64,000 nt of DNA from positions 1-64,000 of the forward strand of contig CAJJBR010000056.1 in the NCBI GenBank assembly GCA_905182475.1, in the 5' to 3' direction. This document shows, piece after piece, positions 1,070-31,864 of this stretch (within the stretch, counting starts at the first letter, position 1; each line of letters opens with the position of its first letter). Made by a program: the position numbers and the translations under genes. The notes beneath the pieces are model-generated. The model made no database searches, was not told where the DNA came from, and saw only the letters and a list, made by a program, of their open reading frames with translations. The DNA is from Akkermansiaceae bacterium. Its GTDB lineage: Bacteria > Verrucomicrobiota > Verrucomicrobiia > Verrucomicrobiales > Akkermansiaceae.

Positions 1070-4000
1070 AACCCAAAATCCTGCCTCCGGCGGGCAATCA
1101 CATCCCCTGAATTTTCCCAACGCCTGGCTCCCTTAGCCACCGGCGCTTGCCCCGTCGTGCTCGACCACGCCGCCGAGGCATCCCACTCCTTCCTTGCTGC
1201 CCTCGCCTGCACCGCCGCATCCGACCTAGCAAAAAAGCGCCACTGGATCCTTCACGAATCCCCCCGCCAGCGCGAGCGACTCGCCACCGAACTCGAACTC
1301 TGGGGCATCACCGCCCTCGTCCTCCCGGACTCCCCGGTCAACCCCGAGGACGACCTCCACGAAATCCAAGATCCCGAGACCGCCGCCGAGTGGTTCGCCA
1401 TCTTGGAAATCCTCGCCACCTCCGACTCCTTCACCATCCTCTGCGGCTCCGAATCGTTCGACCAATACGCCCCTTCCCCGAAATCCCTCCTCTCCAACCG
1501 CACCCAGCTAAAACCCGGCATCACCCTAGATCCCACCACCTTCGCAGAAACCCTCACCGAGCACGGCTACGAGCGACACCCCACCGTCACCGGACGAGGC
1601 CATTTCGCCATCCGCGGTGGCATCCTAGACCTCTTCCCCTTCCAATCCCCCCGCCCCCTCCGCCTAGAATTCTTCGATACCGAACTCGAATCCCTCCGCG
1701 AGTTCGACATCAACACCCAAGCCTCCACCCGCAAGCTACCCGAGCTAGACCTCCTCCTAACAGAACCCCCCGCCGTAGCCAAAATCGCAGATTATTTGCG
1801 AAAAGATGACACCGTCATCGAAATTGCAAGTAGCTGCCCCGTCCCGGGGCAGGCCGTGGAAACACCGTCTCGGGGTGACTCTTCTTTCCTCATCACCGAA
1901 AACACCGCCGAAGGCGTGTTAGAGGAAGACTTCACCCTAGCCACCTTCGAGTCCCCCCTAGGCACCTTCGACGCCGGAGACTTCGTCCTCGACGAACTCC
2001 GCCGAGAAACCTTTTTCAAACAACTCAACGAATGGCAGCGCGAAAAATGGGACACCCTCATCGTCTTCTCCACCAAAGGCGAACTCGAACGCTTCACCGA
2101 ACTCTCCGGAAAAGACCTAGAACGCGACCTAGGCCTCACCCCAGTCCTAGGAGAACTGATAAGTAGCTTCACCCTACCCGCCACAAAACTAGCCGTCCTC
2201 TCCTCCAGCGAGCTCTTCGGCCGCTACCGCACCCCCGGAGCCGCCCGACGCTCCACCGTCGAGAAAGCCCGCGCCATCCGCGCCCGCGCAACCCTCGACG
2301 ACATCGAAGAAGGCGACCTCGTCGTCCACTACGAATACGGCATCGGGAAATTCCGCGGCATCGCCCAAGAAGACGAAGGCGAAGAACTCCAGATCGAATA
2401 CAAAGACGGCTCCATCCTCTCCGTCCCCCTAGAACAAGCCCACCTCATCGGAAAATACGTAGGAGTCGGAGGAAAAACCCCGGACCTCAACAAGCTCGGC
2501 AACGCCACCTGGCAGAAAAACCGCAAACAAGCCGAGAAATCCATCCTAGATTACGCCGCCCGCCTGCTCCGCATCCAGGCAGAGCGCGAGCACGAACAAG
2601 GCTACGCCCATCCGCCAGATACCCGCTGGATGTTCGAGTTCGAGCAAAGTTTCCACTACACCGAAACACCCGACCAGAAACAGGCGATCATCGATACCAA
2701 ACTCGACCTAGAATCCCCCAACTCCATGGATCGCCTCATCTGTGGCGACGTAGGATTCGGAAAAACAGAAGTAGCAATCCGCGCCGCCTTCAAAGCCATC
2801 ACCGGCGGCAAACAAGCCGCCCTGCTCTGCCCCACCACCGTCCTCGCAGAGCAACACTGGCGCACCTTCCGCGAGCGCTTCTCCGACTACCCCATCCGAG
2901 TCGATCTCCTCAACCGCTTCCGCAAACCCGCCGAAGTCCGCGCCACCATCAAAGGCCTAGCCGACGGCTCCGTAGACATGGTCATCGGCACACACAGACT
3001 CATCTCCGGCGATGTCGCCTACAAAGACCTCGGCCTCGCCATTGTCGATGAAGAGCAACGCTTCGGAGTCGCTCATAAGGAAAAGTTCAAAGACCTGTTC
3101 CGCCAGATCGACGTCCTCACCCTCTCCGCAACCCCCATTCCGCGCACCTTATATATGGCACTCATGGGAGCCAGAGATATGTCCACTATCGACACCCCCC
3201 CGGCAAACCGCCTCCCAGTCTCCACCTCTGTAGTCGCCTACGACGAACGCATCATCCGCGATGCCATCCGCCGCGAGATGAAACGCGGCGGCCAAGTCTT
3301 CTTCCTCCACAACCGCGTAAAAACCATCGAGCAAGTCCACAGAAAGCTCAAAGAACTCGTCCCCGAAGCCCGCGTCCTCGTCGGCCACGGCCAGATGGAC
3401 AAAGACGACCTAGAAACCGTCATGCACTCCTTCGTTAACCACGAAGCCGACGTCCTCCTAGCCACCACCATCATCGAGACCGGCATCGACATCCCCAACG
3501 CCAACACCATCCTCATCGACCGCGCCGACCGCTTCGGCCTAGCCGATCTCTACCAGCTCAGAGGCCGCGTCGGCCGCGCCGGAGAAAAAGCTTACGCCAT
3601 TCTCCTCCTCCCCAAGGAAATGATCACCCAAGGCGACGCCCGCAAACGTATCCACGCCATCAAGCAATACACCGCCCTAGGCTCTGGCTTCAAAATCGCC
3701 ATGCGCGACCTAGAAATCCGCGGAGCCGGCAACCTCCTAGGCACCAAACAATCCGGCCACATCGCCCAAATCGGCTTCGACCTCTACTGCCAGCTCCTCC
3801 GCCAATCCGTAGACCGCCTGAAAGGTAAAAAAGACCCCACCCTCCAAGACACCACCTTCAAAGCCGACTTCATCGTCCCCACAGAAACCCAATGGGTTAC
3901 TAAAATTTCAAATTCCAAATCTCAAACCTCAACCCAAGAAAACTTATCTTCCTTGGCGGACTTGGCGGTTAAAAACTCTTCCCCCGACCTACTCCCAGCC

Positions 4001-20626: not shown

Positions 20627-21319
20627 CTACGACTTGCGGCGGGCAAGGAGGAGACAATGCCTTGATCTTTTCGCTCGTTCGTGAGTCTTGGAAGCAAACT
20701 CCTCCACGATAAAACCGGCTTTGATGAGGAGCTTCTTGAACTTCGGAGCCGGCTCCGAAAGCCAGTAGGCGATGCAGCCCTGCGGCGTGATCACTTGACG
20801 CAGTTTCTCCAGGAACCCGGGCGAATACAGGCGGGCGTTCCCGGACGTGATCAGATCATCCGGGGTATTGTCGATATCGAGCAGCAAGGCGTCGTAGGAT
20901 CCAGGCTTCTTTTTCGAGACGATGTCGAAAAGATCACCCAAGATGATCACGGTTCTGGGATCCTCAAGCAAGGGACCGTTGAACTCCACCAGATGAGTCC
21001 GGTTCCATTCAATCAATGGAGGCATCAGTTCCGCGACATCCACTGTCGCCGGGCTACCAACGAGTTCGAGGGTTCTTTTAAGCGTGAATCCCAGCCCCAA
21101 TCCACCGATCAGGATCTTGGGATGTTTTGGCCTTGATGCTTTTCCCTCAAGTAGGGACTGGCAGCCGATGTCCGCTAGCTGCTGCTCGGAAAAGGTGAGA
21201 GCCGTACTCATCAACTCGTAGCCGTTGTATTTCAGGTAGATCTTACCGTCGTGCTTATGAAGCGAATAATGAGTGCCATCAGGCATCGTGGATTCGTCAA
21301 TTTTAACGTATGGCTTCAT
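20627..21319 (-). CDS. Spermidine synthase-like methyltransferase-fold protein (paralogue 1)
   Basis: 230 residues. Rossmann core: KILIGGLGLGFTLKRTLEL (glycine-rich nucleotide loop), VDVAELMPPLIEWNR (acidic end of strand 2), YDALLLDIDNTPDDL (motif post I), and GCIAYWLSE. The pattern matches SpeE-like proteins of unknown substrate common in Verrucomicrobiota; the short beta N-domain of true SpeE (HEYAQ) is replaced by a DGKIYLKYNGYELMST segment. A related copy is at 26289. No speD or other polyamine genes nearby, so polyamine synthesis is not shown. Confidence 0.75.
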   Translation of the reverse strand: MKPYVKIDESTMPDGTHYSLHKHDGKIYLKYNGYELMSTALTFSEQQLADIGCQSLLEGKASRPKHPKILIGGLGLGFTLKRTLELVGSPATVDVAELMPPLIEWNRTHLVEFNGPLLEDPRTVIILGDLFDIVSKKKPGSYDALLLDIDNTPDDLITSGNARLYSPGFLEKLRQVITPQGCIAYWLSEPAPKFKKLLIKAGFIVEEFASKTHERAKRSRHCLLLARRKS

Positions 21320-22109: not shown

Positions 22110-23893
22110 TTATTCAGCTTTGGATACGATGAGGTAGTAGGCTCCGACTTCTTTTCCGTCTGCGGTGGTAAAGACCGGGGCTAGCTGGTGAGAGCCTTCG
22201 GTTAGTTCTGCGGTGAAGGTGACTTGTGTGGCCCACTCGGGGATGTTTTTTGACGCGATGTCTTTTCCATTCAGACGCATGACGGCGCTGGTGAAGGGAA
22301 AGGCTTTGCCGGGTTTGGTGCTAAAAGCTTTGCTGGCGCCGGGCACGTTCGACTCTACGGGGAGACCTGCGGTGATGGCTGTATCTGCCTCTTTCGGCCA
22401 GCGGCGCATCTCGAGATTGTAGGTTCCCGTCTCGATAACTTTGACTGCCCAATGACCTTGGTGTTTACCATCTTTGGTGGCGGGGTCATTGCGCACGTGG
22501 CCTTGATTCCAGGGCGGGAGACGTTCTTGGATCCAGTCATGGCCGGTGAGGGTGACGACCGGGGCTTTCGGGTGACCGAGGTGAATTTCGGTGGTTTGGG
22601 AAAAGGTAGGCTCAAGCTCTGCCCACCAGTCTTCGTAGAATTGGCGCATGGCCTGGACTTGCTCCGGGTGGGCGGCGGCTATGTTATTTTTCTGACCGGG
22701 GTCTGCGGTGATGTCGTAGAGTTCTTTCCCATTAATGAGACGCCATTTCTGGGACATGACGGAGGAGCCGCGCCATTTAATAGGGTCGCGGACGCGTTGC
22801 GAATCGGTGATAAGATAACGGGCAGGCCAGGCTATGCTATCGCCTTTGTAGAGGAGTTCCTTGATGGATGTTCCGTCAAATTTCAGGCTAGCAGGGATAT
22901 TTTCTGAGCCGGTGAGATCGAGCAATGTGGGCACGATATCGACGAAACCGGTGAGTATTTTGATGGATTTCTTCTCGGTCAGTTTTCCATCCGGCCAATG
23001 GATAATGAAGGGAACACGGTGCCCGCCATCGTAGGCGCTGCCCTTTTTTCCGCGCATTCCGGCGTTGTGGACTTTCGCCCCGTAGGCGGTGCCGTTATCG
23101 GTGGTGAAGATGAAGATGGTATTGTCCGCGATGCCTAGCTCTTCGATGACTTTGCGGGTCGGGCGACATTGTCATCGATATTTGTGATCATGCCGTAGAA
23201 GGCTTGGCTGGCTTTTGGTTCATCAGGGTAGAGATCCATGTATTTTTGCGGGCAGTGGAGCGGGCCGTGGGGGGCATTTGTGGAAATGTAGGCGAAGAAG
23301 GGTTTCTTTGCCGCGGCACTGTCTTTGATGAACTGAATGCCGTAGTCAAAAAAGACATCAGTGCAGAAGCCCTTGGCGACAACGATCTTGCCGTTGTGAA
23401 AGTAGCTACCATCGAAGTAGTTGTTATTCCATACATCCGGGGTCTGGCCTACGCCGCCGCCGCCGTGGCGATACACCTCATCGAAGCCGCGATCTTCCGG
23501 GCGGTAGGGATAATTATCACCAAGATGCCATTTCCCGAACATGCCGGAAGTGTAGCCGTTTTCCTTTAGGAGGGAGGCAATGGTGATTTCATTTCCACGG
23601 AGCATGGAGCGTCCGTTGACGGTGTGCCAGACGCCGGTGCGGTTCGTCCAATGCCCGGTGAGGAGACCGCAGCGTGTTGGGGAACAGGTGGGAGCTACGT
23701 GGTAATCATCGAGAGCTACGGATTCCGAGTGGAGCTTGTCGATGGCGGGGGTTTTGACGTATGGGTGGCCGTTGTGCGCGAGATCGCCGTAGCCTTGTTC
23801 ATCTGTGATGACGAAGACGATATTGGGCTTCCCCTTGGCTGTTGCGAGCGAGATGCCGACAGCTAGGATTAGGAGTAGTGAAATGTGTTCCAT
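22110..23893 (-). pseudogene. Arylsulfatase, single frameshift
   Basis: The 5' part (from 23893) has a signal peptide, [16 protein letters not shown] (metal ligands), and the sulfatase signature [11 protein letters not shown], whose Cys becomes formylglycine. The frame breaks near 23160: after NIDDNV the codons read RPAKSSKS and stop. In the next frame the protein continues [39 protein letters not shown] and on to 22110. One missing base in the GTCGCCCGACC stretch would explain it. All catalytic motifs remain, so it is either a recent mutation or a sequencing error. Length without the shift is about 594 residues, normal for sulfatases. Confidence 0.85.
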
Positions 23894-23948
23894 CTTCTTG
23901 CACGTTCTATATTTTCAGTATTTTCTGAAAAGGAAGAAATTTCTCACA

Positions 23949-24404
23949 ATGAAACTACCAGAACAAATCACCAAGATTGAGGTCTTCTATGATGGACGCT
24001 GCAGGATGTGCTGCAGCTTCCATGAGTGGATCAACCGCCAGCCGCGAGCTTTCGAGATCGCCTTCATCCCCTACCAGGCGGCGGATGCTGAACGGATCTT
24101 TCCCGGGATCGGCATGCTCGATCCTGCACGGGAAATGATCGTGAGGACTTGCGGAAACAAAATTTATCGGGGTGCCGAGGCTTGGGTGCTGTGCCTCTAC
24201 AGTTGCTCGAATTACCAGACGGCGGCGCGTAGATTAGCAGGACCGGGATTACTACCCGTTGCCATCCATGCCTGCCGGGTGCTCGCTGCGAACCGCCATG
24301 CGCTGAGCAAGGTTTTCTTCAGGGGCAAGGACAGGAAAGTGCGAGACGAGCTTCACAACATGCAAGCCCCGGAATGCCCTGATGATTTTTGCGCGAACCA
24401 TTGA
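23949..24404 (+). CDS. DCC-family (DUF393) thiol-disulfide oxidoreductase-like protein
   Basis: 151 residues from the ATG at 23949 (GGAAG ribosome binding site). The motif YDGRCRMCC (Asp15, Cys18, Cys21) defines the DUF393/DCC thioredoxin-like group. The later EAWVLCLYS and a Cys near the end (PDDFCANH) are typical. Longer frames upstream are not supported by motifs. First gene of a four-gene plus-strand unit with two small membrane proteins and an MBOAT acyltransferase. Confidence 0.85.
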   Translation: MKLPEQITKIEVFYDGRCRMCCSFHEWINRQPRAFEIAFIPYQAADAERIFPGIGMLDPAREMIVRTCGNKIYRGAEAWVLCLYSCSNYQTAARRLAGPGLLPVAIHACRVLAANRHALSKVFFRGKDRKVRDELHNMQAPECPDDFCANH

Positions 24405-24423
24405 ACCCCCTTATCAAAAAATC

Positions 24424-24828
24424 ATGGACACATTCATCTTGGAAAGCGGACTACGCATCGCGGGACTAATGCTTTCGGGCTTGGTTGTTGCGAATTTCGT
24501 CGCGGCGAAACGGTGGGACTACGCGGGTAATCTTGCGGGCCGCCAAGTGATTATTCGGCAGGTTTTTTTCGTCCACTGCGCCTACATCGTCGCGATCATC
24601 ACCGCACTCGCAATCCAGTGCCTAGGTTGGCCGGGTCTGCTATTGGAGGGCGGTATGGCACGAGTTGTCTGCGCATTTTTCGGCCTTTTCTGGGGAAGCC
24701 GTGTGGTGGTGCAACTCACCTACTACGATAAGGAAATGAGACGCCGCGACCGTGGTTGGGATGTCTTTTTCCTCGGGGTCTTTCTCACTCTTGCTCTCAT
24801 CTTCACCCTCGCCGCCATCTACCAATGA
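24424..24828 (+). CDS. Small integral membrane protein, four helices
   Basis: 134 residues from the ATG at 24424. Four hydrophobic segments (LRIAGLMLSGLVVANFVAA, CAYIVAIITALAIQCLG, VVCAFFGLFWGSRVVVQL, VFFLGVFLTLALIFTLAAIY), with a conserved-looking RQVFFVHCAY and YYDKEMRRRDRG loop. It resembles the next gene in size and arrangement, so the two may be ancient paralogues. Stop overlaps the next start (ATGA), so it is translationally coupled. Function unknown. Confidence 0.7.
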   Translation: MDTFILESGLRIAGLMLSGLVVANFVAAKRWDYAGNLAGRQVIIRQVFFVHCAYIVAIITALAIQCLGWPGLLLEGGMARVVCAFFGLFWGSRVVVQLTYYDKEMRRRDRGWDVFFLGVFLTLALIFTLAAIYQ

Positions 24829-25268
24829 AAGAACTGTTAGAATTCGGACTCATCATCGCCGGATGCTCGCTGGCGGCACTCAGCATCGCCAGCTTCTGGA
24901 TTCCCAAAGCACTCGGATGGCGGGAGAAATTGGCTGGGCTTACCCCGCTGATGCGAGAGCTGTTTTTAACTTATTCGTTCTACGTATGGAGCAGCCATGT
25001 GCTTTTCACAGTATTAGCCCTCGGTTTTGGCGATTGGCTGATTGGCGGAACGAATGCGGCGAAGGCAATGAACACCTTCATGCTGCTGTGGTGGAGCGTG
25101 CGACTCTACTTGCAGTTCTTCGGGTTTGATCTGAGTGAGATCAAGGCAAGCAGGTTCAACCGCATCGCCAAGCACCTGCTGACCTTGCTCTTCATCGGCC
25201 TCGTCGTCCTCTTCGGCGGCCTGCTTTGCTGGAACTTGGGATGGTTGCAACCAGGGAGCCTTCAATGA
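24825..25268 (+). CDS. Small integral membrane protein, four helices
   Basis: 147 residues. Start ATG overlaps the previous stop. Segments FGLIIAGCSLAALSIASFWI, LFLTYSFYVWSSHVLFTVLA, MNTFMLLWWSVRLYLQFFG and LTLLFIGLVVLFGGLLC. Like its neighbour it has an RELFxxY...H pattern in helix 2 and a WWxxR/WGxR pattern in helix 3. It overlaps the MBOAT gene by four bases. Probably forms a membrane complex with that enzyme; inferred from context only. Confidence 0.7.
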   Translation: MKELLEFGLIIAGCSLAALSIASFWIPKALGWREKLAGLTPLMRELFLTYSFYVWSSHVLFTVLALGFGDWLIGGTNAAKAMNTFMLLWWSVRLYLQFFGFDLSEIKASRFNRIAKHLLTLLFIGLVVLFGGLLCWNLGWLQPGSLQ

Positions 25269-26188
25269 TCGCTGTTATTCCATTCCTCGTGATCGCCGGA
25301 GTTGCCGCCGGGCCGCTGTTGACGAAGGTGAAACCAACTGCATTCAAGCGAGCCCTAGGATGGCTTATTTTGGTAGCTCTGGTATTCGCAGCCGACTTCG
25401 CGATGAAGGACGGAGAACCGCTCTGGCGGATGGTTGCGATTTGCAGCGTGCTGCTCGGAGCGATGAAAGGTCTGGTCTATGTGGAGTGGGCGGGGTCGCA
25501 AAAGCTTCCCCTTCCCCGTTACGGAGTCTTCGCCTTCCTATGGTTCGGCATGGATCCGAGGAGTTTCCGGGTCAGGCGGACGGGTCTTAGCTGGCAGCGC
25601 GACGTGTCGCTTGGCCTATTTCTCATGCTGGTCGGAACACTTGGAGCTTGGCTCGTCTGGGCTATGGGCTGGCGGCAGATCTTTGTAATGTTTCTGCCGA
25701 TGAGTCTCGGCTTCCACTTCGGAGCCCTACGCGTGCTTAAAGGCGTCCAACGTGCCGCAGGCTTTCCTGTCAGGACGCTTTTCCCAAATATCTTAGAAAC
25801 CCATGGTATAGCCGACTTTTGGAGCAGGCGCTGGAATACCGGATACTCGCAGATGATGCAGCGGTTGGTCGGGCGACCGGTGGCAAAATGCTTCGGCGAA
25901 AGCGCCGGTATCATGGCAGTCTTTGTCTCATCCGGCCTGCTACATGAAGCCGCAATCACCCTTCCGGTCGGCTCGGGCTTCGGGCTTCCTACCATCTATT
26001 TCACTCTCCACGGATTTCTGATCCTCTTGGAAAGAAAATGGAACCGCCGGTTAGGAAAAATTCCAACCTTACTTGCTGTCATCCTCCCGCTGGGATGGCT
26101 TTTTCCTCCCGATTTCCAAACAGAAGTGATCGCGAAGTGCCTGCGGGTGTTTGATTTTGTAAGTGGCATGGCTGGAAATTTGCTGTGA
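25265..26188 (+). CDS. Wax synthase-type MBOAT (MBOAT_2) acyltransferase
   Basis: 307 residues from the ATG at 25265 (overlaps the previous stop). Multi-span protein; the C-terminal half has FWSRRWNTGYSQMMQRLV and VSSGLLHEAAITLPVG, where the Asn/His pair fits the catalytic His of plant and bacterial wax synthase-like MBOAT_2 enzymes. These transfer acyl groups to alcohols or other acceptors. The product might be a wax ester, an acylated polymer or a lipid; context with a DCC protein does not settle it. Last gene of the operon. Confidence 0.8.
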   Translation: MIAVIPFLVIAGVAAGPLLTKVKPTAFKRALGWLILVALVFAADFAMKDGEPLWRMVAICSVLLGAMKGLVYVEWAGSQKLPLPRYGVFAFLWFGMDPRSFRVRRTGLSWQRDVSLGLFLMLVGTLGAWLVWAMGWRQIFVMFLPMSLGFHFGALRVLKGVQRAAGFPVRTLFPNILETHGIADFWSRRWNTGYSQMMQRLVGRPVAKCFGESAGIMAVFVSSGLLHEAAITLPVGSGFGLPTIYFTLHGFLILLERKWNRRLGKIPTLLAVILPLGWLFPPDFQTEVIAKCLRVFDFVSGMAGNLL

Positions 26189-26288: not shown

Positions 26289-26957
26289 TCAATCCCTCTC
26301 GGCGACGAACAAGGTGTGGGTGAAGCGTTTCGCCTTCGGGTAAGCCTTGGCACCCACGCACTCGACGCTTTTGAAAAATTTTCCCAAGGAGCGTGCGAAA
26401 GTCTTGTCCTGGTTCGCCGACCAATAGACGACGCAGCCACCCGGGCGGAGGGCGGCTTTTACCCGGGAGATCCCTCCCCCATCGTAAAGTTTCGCATTCC
26501 CCTTCTGGACCAGAGGATCCGGGCTATTGTCCACATCTAGCAGGATCACATCGTAACGATCTTTTCCCACACGGTCGATCAGCTCGGAAACGTCGCGGAT
26601 GTGGATGCGAACGCGCGGATCATCGACCAGGTGGCCGTTGACCTCTGTTAGAAATTCTCGATTCCAATCGACTACCACTTGGAGCAGCTCCGCGACATCA
26701 ACTATTGCATCGGGCGGGCAGAGTTCGAGCACGCGTCGGAGGGTGAAACCAAAACCAAGTCCGCCGATGAGGATACGCGGCTTTGAGGGCATTTTCCCAC
26801 ATGCCAGATCGGCCATCTGTTGCTCCGATGAAGAGGCGTTCGTGCTCATCAATGGCACCCCGCCGACTTTCATAAAATGATGGCCGTCGTGCTCCTGAAG
26901 AAGCAGCGTTTCGCCATCCGGAGTTTTGGAGGTGGCGAGGGTGGTAGTCGGTTTCAT
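26289..26957 (-). CDS. Spermidine synthase-like methyltransferase-fold protein (paralogue 2)
   Basis: 222 residues. Same layout as the protein at 20627: DGHHFMKVGGVPLMST N-segment, PRILIGGLGFGFTLRRVLEL, IVDVAELLQVVVDWNREFL, YDVILLDVDNSPDPLVQ, GGCVVYWSANQ. The two share the SSSEQQMADL/FSEQQLADI linker. Substrate unknown. The two copies lie on the same strand about 5 kb apart with an unrelated plus-strand operon between them. Confidence 0.75.
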   Translation of the reverse strand: MKPTTTLATSKTPDGETLLLQEHDGHHFMKVGGVPLMSTNASSSEQQMADLACGKMPSKPRILIGGLGFGFTLRRVLELCPPDAIVDVAELLQVVVDWNREFLTEVNGHLVDDPRVRIHIRDVSELIDRVGKDRYDVILLDVDNSPDPLVQKGNAKLYDGGGISRVKAALRPGGCVVYWSANQDKTFARSLGKFFKSVECVGAKAYPKAKRFTHTLFVAERD

Positions 26958-30221: not shown

Positions 30222-31160
30222 TCAAGTTCTTTTCATTTCCATGCCCTTTGGGGAAGTGAGAGCGGAGAAAACCATAGAATACACCCGGTGGCGCGGGACT
30301 TTGATTCGTTTCCTGAGACTTTTGAGATCCGCCACATCCATGCATTCTAGGGTTTCCTTGGCGATCATAGCGGGCAGGATACTCGCGGTGCGGAGACGGC
30401 GGGATTCCAGATCTGCGGAATAGGAAAATCCAGCCTCCACCCTCCCCAGCGCGATCTTCCTCCATTTTAAAAACTCCCCCATCAGCAATTTTTCATCTGT
30501 CGGATCGGCAACAGGAAGATAGCATCGCCCGTTCGCGAGATCCTCGGGGAGGTCGCGGAGGATATTTACGAGCTGTAGGGATTTTCCGTAGTCAACCGCA
30601 TGCTTTAGGAGTTCTCTTTCCGGTTGGAGGGAGAATTTTCTACCAAGGGTGAGGTATCCGAGTTTCGTCCAAAACTCCCCCACGCATCCGGCGACCCGCC
30701 AAGTGTAGTCCTCAAGTTCCGCGTCATTTGCCAGTGATATGGGATTTGAAGCACCCGCTTCACCGAACCTCTTCAAATCCAGACGCTGCCCGCTAATGAT
30801 GATCCCGATCACTTCACGGATCAGCTCCTTTTGCTCCGCGGAAAGCGAAACGAACACTTTAATCACCTCCCCCGCCCTTTCCAAGAGAAGCTTTTCTCGG
30901 GGATCCGGTGTCCCTTCGATCATAGCGGCTGACCAAGGCCTGATCCCTTCGCCATCGGTTACCTGTTTCGAAAAATTCTCCAAGCAACAGAGCCTTTCCC
31001 CTGCGGGAACTTCGGCAGAATCCGCAATCGTATCACTGATCCGCGCCAGTAGATACGCGATCCCCGCCGGACGCCGCATCGGCTTCGGGAGGAGTCGAAG
31101 ACTCAGGTAAAACGAACGCGAAACCCCTTTCAGAACGCCCGTTTCAAGCCCCGTATCCAT
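30222..31160 (-). CDS. Squalene/phytoene synthase family protein
   Basis: About 312 residues. First Asp-rich motif DTIAD (Asp43-Asp47) and second motif LQLVNILRDLPED near residue 197, which bind the two prenyl diphosphates through Mg. The family joins two farnesyl or geranylgeranyl diphosphates head to head, giving squalene or phytoene. No hpn or crt genes flank it, so the product is not settled; squalene for hopanoids is the likelier role in this phylum. The start overlaps the stop of the CdsZ-like gene (TGATG), so they are co-translated. GTG at 31163 is an alternative start. Confidence 0.85.
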   Translation of the reverse strand: MDTGLETGVLKGVSRSFYLSLRLLPKPMRRPAGIAYLLARISDTIADSAEVPAGERLCCLENFSKQVTDGEGIRPWSAAMIEGTPDPREKLLLERAGEVIKVFVSLSAEQKELIREVIGIIISGQRLDLKRFGEAGASNPISLANDAELEDYTWRVAGCVGEFWTKLGYLTLGRKFSLQPERELLKHAVDYGKSLQLVNILRDLPEDLANGRCYLPVADPTDEKLLMGEFLKWRKIALGRVEAGFSYSADLESRRLRTASILPAMIAKETLECMDVADLKSLRKRIKVPRHRVYSMVFSALTSPKGMEMKRT

Positions 31161-31864
31161 CACTCATCGACAGCAAGGATCCGACCGCAGTTCTCGCATT
31201 GCGTGACCTCTTTTTCGCCCTGCACGGCGATAGCAGTGGAGGCGATCACTTTCATGTGGCAGCCGGTGCATTTTCCGTCTTTCAGGGTACCGATGGCCAT
31301 CCCGTCTTTGGATTTCATTAGTTTTACGTAGAGCGGCAGGTAGTCTTCGGAAACTTCGGCCACGTGCTTCTCGCGCTCAGCCTTCACTTCCTTCACCTGC
31401 TCCTCCATCTGAGTGTGGCGTTGCTTGATCGATACTAGATCTTCTTCCACGAAACCTTTCGTCTTCGCGAGCTGAGCCTGGGCTTCCGTCTGCTTTTTCC
31501 GAAAAATATCCACCTCTTCCATCGCCTCAAGCTCGCGGGTCTCAAGATCGTCGATTTCCTTTTTGTAACGAACCACCTCATGGCCGAGGGCATTGTATTC
31601 GTCGTTCTTCTTGGTCTCGAACTGCTGGGTCTGGAGGCGCTTGATCGTCGTCCGGCGCGTTTCCGCATCCATCTCGATTTTCTTCACTTTCAGCTCGATC
31701 GCTATGAGTTCGTCGTGAGCTTTCTTCAGAGCAGCGGTATCCCCATTGAGCTTAGCATTCGCACGGGCTTCCTCCTGCGGGAGTTTTGCCAGTTCTTTTC
31801 CCAGCGTTATCAAGCGCCTGTCCCTATCCTGCAAAATTAAAAGTCCGCGAATCTCATCCAACAT
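31160..31864 (-). CDS. Coiled-coil zinc-ribbon protein, CdsZ-like
   Basis: 234 residues. A long coiled coil (residues 1-170, rich in Lys, Glu and Ala; LKKAHDELIAIELKVKKIE, DDLETRELEAMEEVDIF) followed by a C4 zinc ribbon with CTGCHMK and CENCGR near the end. This matches the C4-type zinc ribbon family (CdsZ/CT398-like), which in chlamydiae binds type III secretion and sigma-54 proteins. No secretion genes are near, so the partner is unknown. It is co-translated with the prenyl synthase. Confidence 0.8.
   Translation of the reverse strand: MLDEIRGLLILQDRDRRLITLGKELAKLPQEEARANAKLNGDTAALKKAHDELIAIELKVKKIEMDAETRRTTIKRLQTQQFETKKNDEYNALGHEVVRYKKEIDDLETRELEAMEEVDIFRKKQTEAQAQLAKTKGFVEEDLVSIKQRHTQMEEQVKEVKAEREKHVAEVSEDYLPLYVKLMKSKDGMAIGTLKDGKCTGCHMKVIASTAIAVQGEKEVTQCENCGRILAVDE

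Follow-up and report, generated by a model that had tools for sequence, protein, structure and literature searches.

What reaction is served by a bacterial operon in which a membrane-bound O-acyltransferase (MBOAT) is encoded after two small membrane proteins and a thioredoxin-like protein? The question is raised by a contig of an Akkermansiaceae bacterium (CAJJBR010000056.1, assembly GCA_905182475.1), of which a stretch of 64,000 nucleotides (nt), here called the window, was analysed. Positions 23949-26188 of its plus strand encode a DCC protein, two small membrane proteins that we call S-A and S-B, and the MBOAT, in that order. An initial annotation of the window had listed this four-gene set, correctly as to coordinates and order, and had read it as a membrane acyltransferase complex with a thioredoxin-like partner. 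The explanation of the whole that we favour, with modest confidence, is that the operon encodes a membrane lipid O-acyltransferase assembly and forms one half of a GbsR-controlled regulon. The coding features are as follows.

23949..24404, plus strand: DCC1-like (thioredoxin-like) protein (PF04134, E 5.4e-13; DxxCxxC motif)
24424..24828, plus strand: S-A, small membrane protein of 134 residues, His-type paralogue (by S-tree group and His at column 50)
24825..25268, plus strand: S-B, four-helix membrane protein of 147 residues, Tyr-type paralogue, MBOAT-adjacent (model pLDDT 95.8)
25265..26188, plus strand: MBOAT_2 (wax-synthase/DGAT1-type) acyltransferase of 307 residues (PF13813, E 6.3e-9; model pLDDT 96.5)
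25835..25837, plus strand: codon of Asn191, presumed catalytic, in DFWSRRWN (Asn in 48/48 relatives)
25943..25945, plus strand: codon of His227, presumed catalytic, in SSGLLHE (His in 48/48 relatives)

The ATGA overlaps reported earlier for the last two junctions are present, four bases each, between the S-A stop and S-B start (24825-24828) and between the S-B stop and MBOAT start (25265-25268). DCC and S-A are separated by 19 nt when S-A starts at the ATG at 24424, which was chosen because its relatives are 134 residues long; an alternative start at 24382 would make S-A overlap DCC.

We consider first what kind of enzyme the MBOAT is. Its PF13813 match scores 36.4 bits against a curated cut-off of 25, and His151, Asn191, His227 and Glu228 are kept in all 48 aligned relatives; Asn and His are the catalytic residues of MBOATs. 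In a profile search of the PDB, DGAT1 was the only credible match (best E 8e-7). The predicted model (predicted local distance difference test score, pLDDT, 96.5) is closest to DGAT1 (6vyi; Z 20.7, 280 aligned residues, root-mean-square deviation 3.7 Å), with ACAT1 (Z 18.6), DltB (17.5) and PORCN (16.2) next, and the protein aligns to DGAT1 residues 132-477. Foldseek likewise places plant DGAT1 first (E 1.5e-5), then DltB (E 8e-4) and then human ACAT/DGAT1. By sequence and predicted model, the protein is a member of the DGAT1/wax-synthase-type MBOATs. It has PF13813, the catalytic Asn/His, the predicted fold and the DGAT1 profile matches in common with DGAT1/ACAT (SOAT) and the plant MBOAT-type wax synthase, but differs from DGAT1/ACAT in being shorter, bacterial and paired with a dedicated four-helix partner. 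We know of no four-helix partner of the S kind for eukaryotic DGAT1/ACAT.

Characterised bacterial MBOATs mostly act on envelope polymers, and the operon might do likewise, with an MBOAT like AlgI, DltB or PatA and with S-A and S-B as unusual partners replacing the SGNH protein. The AlgI and DltB pairs are MBOAT-SGNH-type systems, as is PatA/PatB, and these resemble the present case in combining a bacterial MBOAT with a conserved gene partner. Envelope-polymer O-acylation is supported by the MBOAT fold, with DltB chains at Z 17.5, and by the use of MBOAT-SGNH pairs in many bacterial polymer acylation pathways, as described in PMC12148441. The same paper gives a C-terminal FxYxxF shuttle motif as the mark of MBOATs encoded with SGNH partners, but this motif occurs in the last 70 residues of none of the 48 MBOAT relatives. 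Instead of an SGNH hydrolase, the partner here is a membrane protein with four helices, and no SGNH family was found among the 29 related-locus proteins scanned with Pfam, a set that leaves most neighbours unscanned. DGAT1 and ACAT also rank above DltB by Z, whereas in Foldseek DltB comes second, above human ACAT/DGAT1. On balance we consider polymer acylation unlikely. Acylation of a protein or peptide, in the manner of HHAT, GOAT or PORCN, appears extremely unlikely; these enzymes belong to the same MBOAT superfamily, and HHAT and PORCN score about Z 16 against the model, but both rank below DGAT1/ACAT, the recurrent neighbours that we examined include no recognisable peptide substrate gene, and the regulon described below contains an SDR and an SRPBCC protein.

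From the catalytic residues, the DGAT1-like model, the absence of FxYxxF and a review that assigns acyl-CoA to MBOATs other than DltB (PMC10213974), we infer acyl-CoA:lipid-alcohol chemistry, the product of which would be a lipid ester. A plasmid search with the MBOAT as query gave no match.

Next we ask what the two small proteins contribute. S-A and S-B are old paralogues by sequence, as had been suspected, with 28% identity over 107 residues (BLASTP E 1e-10), and an S-B query retrieves S-A within its own genome at E 1.8e-7. All Pfam matches of either protein fall below cut-off (E 0.03 or worse), while NCBIfam gives no match for S-B and none that is credible for S-A (best E 0.047); S is a partner family without an entry in Pfam or NCBIfam. 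The S-B model (pLDDT 95.8) is a four-helix bundle. No fold relative is claimed for it, the best matches in Foldseek (E 0.26) and in a second structural search (Z 11.0) being unrelated helical bundles.

Among 59 aligned S proteins, Trp90 and Arg93 (S-B numbering throughout) are invariant, and Gln97 (57/59), Tyr53 (56/59) and Asp102 (54/59) are also conserved; Trp90, Arg93, Gln97 and mostly Asp102 are common to both paralogue groups. What separates the groups is column 50: Tyr stands there in 87 of 88 MBOAT-adjacent S proteins, and His in 33 of the 36 'near' and in all nine 'solo' ones, the three 'near' exceptions being L046 (Tyr) and the Planctomycetota members L104 and L119 (Gln). This conserved His of S-A-type proteins maps to the second helix region. 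A tree of 133 S domains agrees: 44 of the 45 S proteins that do not neighbour an MBOAT, window S-A among them, form one group with no neighbour inside (support 0.889), and the 45th, L046, is really an MBOAT neighbour with one open reading frame (ORF) between.

These data bear on the proposal, made in the initial annotation from a spaced Arg/His pattern seen in both proteins, that S-A and S-B bind a shared cofactor. The Arg is indeed common, but the His is not, being present in S-A and replaced by Tyr in S-B, and with no Cys column exceeding 17 of 59 sequences a cofactor common to both is unsupported. A broader form of the idea, in which S-A and S-B are heme- or quinone-binding subunits serving the acyltransferase, could draw on the His of S-A-type proteins and on the invariance of Trp90 and Arg93 in both groups. 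We judge it decidedly improbable, given the Tyr in 87 of 88 MBOAT-adjacent members and given that no heme or quinone protein stands out in the fold or family searches with S.

S-A-type proteins are also seen in another setting. In six loci from sister genomes (L059, L060, L061, L063, L064 and L065) such a protein adjoins a DUF2071 protein and a methyltransferase, labels that derive from Pfam searches of the L060 members only, and no MBOAT of this family was found in those genomes. We report this, as a side observation, as a second system using the same type of small membrane protein.

How general is the pairing of S with the MBOAT? A scan of genome contigs returned 360 MBOAT relatives, of which the best 80 were kept, giving 79 loci (L071-L149); a first set comprised 26 MBOAT loci including the window, and seven of its contigs are also among the 79. 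By record title, the taxa are Verrucomicrobiota, Planctomycetota, groups of Bacteroidota, Cohnella and Paenibacillus (Bacillota) and the myxobacterium Nannocystis, with further records among the 79 labelled Acidobacteria, Actinomycetota and Caenarcanales. S adjoins the MBOAT in 76 of the 79 loci; two of the misses (L098, L080) lie near contig ends, and L138 (Caenarcanales) is the sole clear absence. In the first set the count is 22 of 26. Its four misses are L046, with a single ORF between S and the MBOAT; L068, whose MBOAT is weak and partial; L070, which is an additional MBOAT copy of G390; and L040 (G319), where S lies about 8 kb off. The second G390 copy (L070, 7136-8068, minus strand) has only an S-B fragment beside it and is apparently a decaying duplicate. 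In 288 genomes drawn from the phylum, a strong MBOAT match was found in 12, all with S, while eight more weak matches (E 1e-10 to 4e-4) were all without S.

Gene order varies by clade, S lying 5' of the MBOAT in 85 loci and 3' in 13 when both sets are pooled, but the two genes remain neighbours. Of 75 S-to-MBOAT junctions, 52 allow a four-base overlap (ATGA 36, GTGA 13, TTGA 3). Natural fusions join S to the MBOAT in L042 and DCC to the MBOAT in L057, L058 and L143, the last with both domains recognised by Pfam. The genes named in the initial annotation are thus found together well beyond the window, and its idea that the acyltransferase forms an assembly in which a thioredoxin-like protein takes part has support from genomic context only, namely the 76/79 pairing, the fusions and an operator-like sequence common to regulon genes; its observations were right and its interpretation half right. 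No title recognisable as a DCC-S-MBOAT system was present among the matches listed in the open-access literature.

Some neighbours were put aside as lineage-specific or housekeeping (DUF1501, PSD1/PSCyt, RecQ, TIM, a chorismate-binding enzyme, ribosomal S9 and L13). A carotenoid/squalene link was dropped, as no squalene/phytoene synthase appeared among the recurrent neighbour clusters scanned, which leave some neighbours unscanned; the window itself has such a gene at 30222-31163. In L081, a single ORF (2657-3292) consists of a DCC fragment without CxxC followed by S-B, with S-A missing, like a deletion product.

The DCC protein is well defined as a family member, its PF04134 match scoring 50.6 bits against a cut-off of 27.8. 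It is like DCC1-like proteins (DUF393, YuxK; PF04134) in this and in its DxxCxxC motif, here DGRCRMC; it differs in its linkage to an MBOAT, or fusion with one, in some members of the set. DxxCxxC is present in 45 of the 47 DCC domain hits and, by a crude pattern, a C-terminal Cys pair in 35. No obvious signal peptide was seen in the window DCC by eye. A DCC gene lies within 3.5 kb of the MBOAT, on the same strand, in 31 of the 79 loci, mostly from Verrucomicrobiota, with two from Cohnella and one each from Paenibacillus and Solitalea; S-MBOAT pairs outside Verrucomicrobiota are mostly without a nearby DCC. In the Bacteroidota loci L116, L120, L121 and L125, S-MBOAT is flanked by a 130-residue protein and a DinB/mycothiol-transferase-like protein, another thiol-chemistry neighbour of the pair.

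The thioredoxin-like nature and DxxCxxC of DCC might point to a redox module, in which S-A and S-B, acting like DsbB/VKOR, connect the thiols of DCC with quinones of the membrane, with the MBOAT as a secondary client. Two further points favour it: a VKOR-like chain (6wvi) is among the structural matches of the S-B model, at Z 9.2, and DCC-S-A persists in G403, where no MBOAT was found. But Z 9.2 is in the common range for helical bundles, most S-MBOAT loci outside Verrucomicrobiota have no DCC nearby, and S, with no column of conserved Cys, lacks the chemistry that defines VKOR/DsbB. A VKOR/DsbB identity of S was rejected for want of conserved redox Cys pairs, and we give the redox module very little credence.

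Is the lipid acyltransferase operon controlled as a unit with other genes? Comparing the DNA 5' of DCC in relatives brought out an 18 bp palindrome, TTTCAGTAwwTACTGAAA. A single copy occurs in the window, 18 nt 5' of DCC; it is the only match at up to three mismatches, 0.03 being expected.

23898..23900, plus strand: TTG, putative -35 element, beginning 15 nt 5' of the operator (position kept in relatives)
23913..23930, no strand: operator-like palindrome TTTCAGTATTTTCTGAAA, one mismatch to TTTCAGTAWWTACTGAAA (sole window match at up to three mismatches)

The draft genome to which the window belongs (3.38 Mb, 144 contigs, 90% complete) has just two sites at up to one mismatch, the one before the operon and one at C44:42437-42454, at the start of a GbsR/MarR-like gene that is followed by an SDR (TIGR01777 reductase). 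Weaker sites number one with two mismatches and four with three, and a reversed-pattern control gave none. The C44 SDR is 81% identical to that of L055, which lies some 3 kb downstream of the L055 MBOAT, while the other over-cut-off SDR of the genome (C70) has about 31% mean identity to clustered SDRs; the C44 regulator is 63% identical to the MBOAT-clustered regulator of L092. Because the only other site with at most one mismatch precedes a GbsR-SDR pair whose relatives adjoin MBOAT clusters, the window operon looks like half of a split, dedicated regulon. This regulator and reductase, seemingly of the same regulon, lay outside the view of the initial annotation.

Elsewhere the cluster often adds a MarR/GbsR-like regulator (15 of the 79 loci), the TIGR01777 reductase (18), a small hydrophobic protein labelled c4 (11) and an SRPBCC-like protein (5), none of which was found beside the window operon. 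These genes were named from Pfam or NCBIfam searches of single members, the SRPBCC matches being below the Pfam cut-off. The regulator resembles GbsR/CudC-type MarR regulators, with MarR_2 over cut-off in the tested members L045, L043 and L128. CudC is the best NCBIfam match of the L045 regulator (E 3.5e-12), but at 46.5 bits against a cut-off of 218 it is not CudC itself, and the predicted targets here are lipid-type rather than choline/betaine genes. An ORF cluster, c9, was rejected as a separate gene since it is antisense to the GbsR gene and overlaps it.

Across 132 stretches we see 71 sites at up to two mismatches, and for 63 of these a regulon gene begins no more than 200 bp downstream. 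Counted per distinct context, 56 of 64 sites precede a regulon gene, or 46 of 49 when 15 stretches chosen for their sites are removed. In 1.55 Mb the pattern has 55 sites at two mismatches and 69 at three, against 0 and 4 for the reversed pattern; the 79 loci hold 40 sites, against 2, 0 and 0 in three base shuffles; and 14 genomes of relatives have one to six sites each at up to two mismatches, with a control match in two. Each of the 15 chosen stretches surrounds a site that lies outside the MBOAT cluster; one comes from the own genome and 14 come from relatives, with two weaker sites of G439 left out. Ten of these 15 sites lead into GbsR-SDR (5), c4-DCC (2), c4 (1), an SRPBCC-like gene (1) or SDR (1). 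In the own genome and in relatives, the palindrome thus stands before the regulator's own gene and before its predicted targets.

Variant sites are found at the same place in the Bacteroidota loci L123, L131, L133 and L149 (TTTCAATA...TATTGAAA-like), and the own-phylum members L038 and L049 have TTTCTGTA...TACAGAAA sites. Among the listed DCC-first relatives, the TTG recurs at -15 or -16 in 13 of the 16 that have no GbsR immediately in front, and in none of the six that have one. If the TTG belongs to a -35 element, the operator would cover the start region, an arrangement compatible with repression.

Two operator copies stand near genes of other kinds. A perfect copy in L182 (4001-4018) is 179 bp before a gene that we take to be fatty-acid-desaturase-like from its His motif, possibly a further regulon member. 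A one-mismatch copy in L193 (4021-4038), at the start of a presumably polyprenyl-synthase-like gene, may be chance.

Several observations weigh against the lipid acyltransferase regulon as proposed. The lead of DGAT1 over DltB is only about 3 Z units, and because of this margin the fold leaves the acceptor class unfixed. S is present in 20 of the 288 drawn genomes, eight of which have no match to this MBOAT, and S-A-type proteins occur with DUF2071 and a methyltransferase where this MBOAT is absent; the role of S is therefore wider than pairing with the MBOAT. DCC, near the MBOAT in just 31 of 79 loci, is not essential to the S-MBOAT pair. G403 (L062, 3839-4747) retains DCC and S-A as well as the operator, but neither S-B nor the family MBOAT was found in its genome (94% complete). 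Given that DCC is not universal, that S-A-type proteins exist without the MBOAT and that G403 retains both genes, S-A and DCC may have functions of their own. As to the operator, five of the 15 off-cluster sites precede no regulon gene. The sites that do not precede one within 200 bp are those of L182, L187, L192, L193 and L194, those inside the MBOAT gene in L120 and L121, and that of L091, where S follows 388 bp further on and no DCC was found. A site is present in 25 of the 31 DCC loci at up to two mismatches and in 26 at up to three; those lacking it are three Bacillota loci (L105, L107 and L126), L143 and L072, the last with another palindrome at that position. Bacillota DCC clusters have neither the clustered regulator nor the site.

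With these points in mind, the assembly that we favour would work as follows. Fatty acyl groups of cytosolic acyl-CoA are probably transferred by the MBOAT, which is a minimal core of DGAT1/ACAT type, with the Asn191/His227 chamber as the route to the acceptor, the hydroxyl group of a small alcohol embedded in the membrane. S-B, the near-constant four-helix partner of the MBOAT, is probably a subunit made by coupled translation, and its paralogue S-A probably belongs to the same assembly. The natural DCC-MBOAT fusions suggest that DCC, which would be a cytosolic thiol/disulfide module, docks on the N-terminus of the MBOAT. The GbsR-like MarR repressor, encoded elsewhere beside the TIGR01777 reductase, would bind the palindrome before both transcription units, and the reductase may supply the alcohol substrate, by synthesis or by recycling.

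We propose, at slightly less than even confidence, that this is a multi-subunit bacterial lipid acyltransferase system not described before, comprising a DGAT1-like MBOAT, an S family split early into Tyr and His types, a fusible DCC, a reductase and one GbsR-like regulator whose operator form recurs from Verrucomicrobiota to Bacteroidota. Its product would be an ester lipid so far unknown from these phyla. In bacteria, the synthesis of wax esters and triacylglycerols is usually credited to the unrelated WS/DGAT enzymes. If the proposal is right, bacteria would have a second way of making neutral or modified lipids, and the system would be a simple model of a DGAT1/ACAT-type core working with subunits; the proposed operator and regulator also let members be found where the genes are scattered.

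Finally, some features of the surrounding DNA may be recorded. The minus-strand gene divergent from the operon, which we take to be sulfatase-like, is split into two ORFs (22110-23057 and 23135-23893), as if interrupted, and its start sits 19 nt from the operator. Two related minus-strand proteins of one sequence cluster (20627-21319 and 26289-26957) flank the region on either side, and the second of these matches Spermine_synth (E 3e-10).

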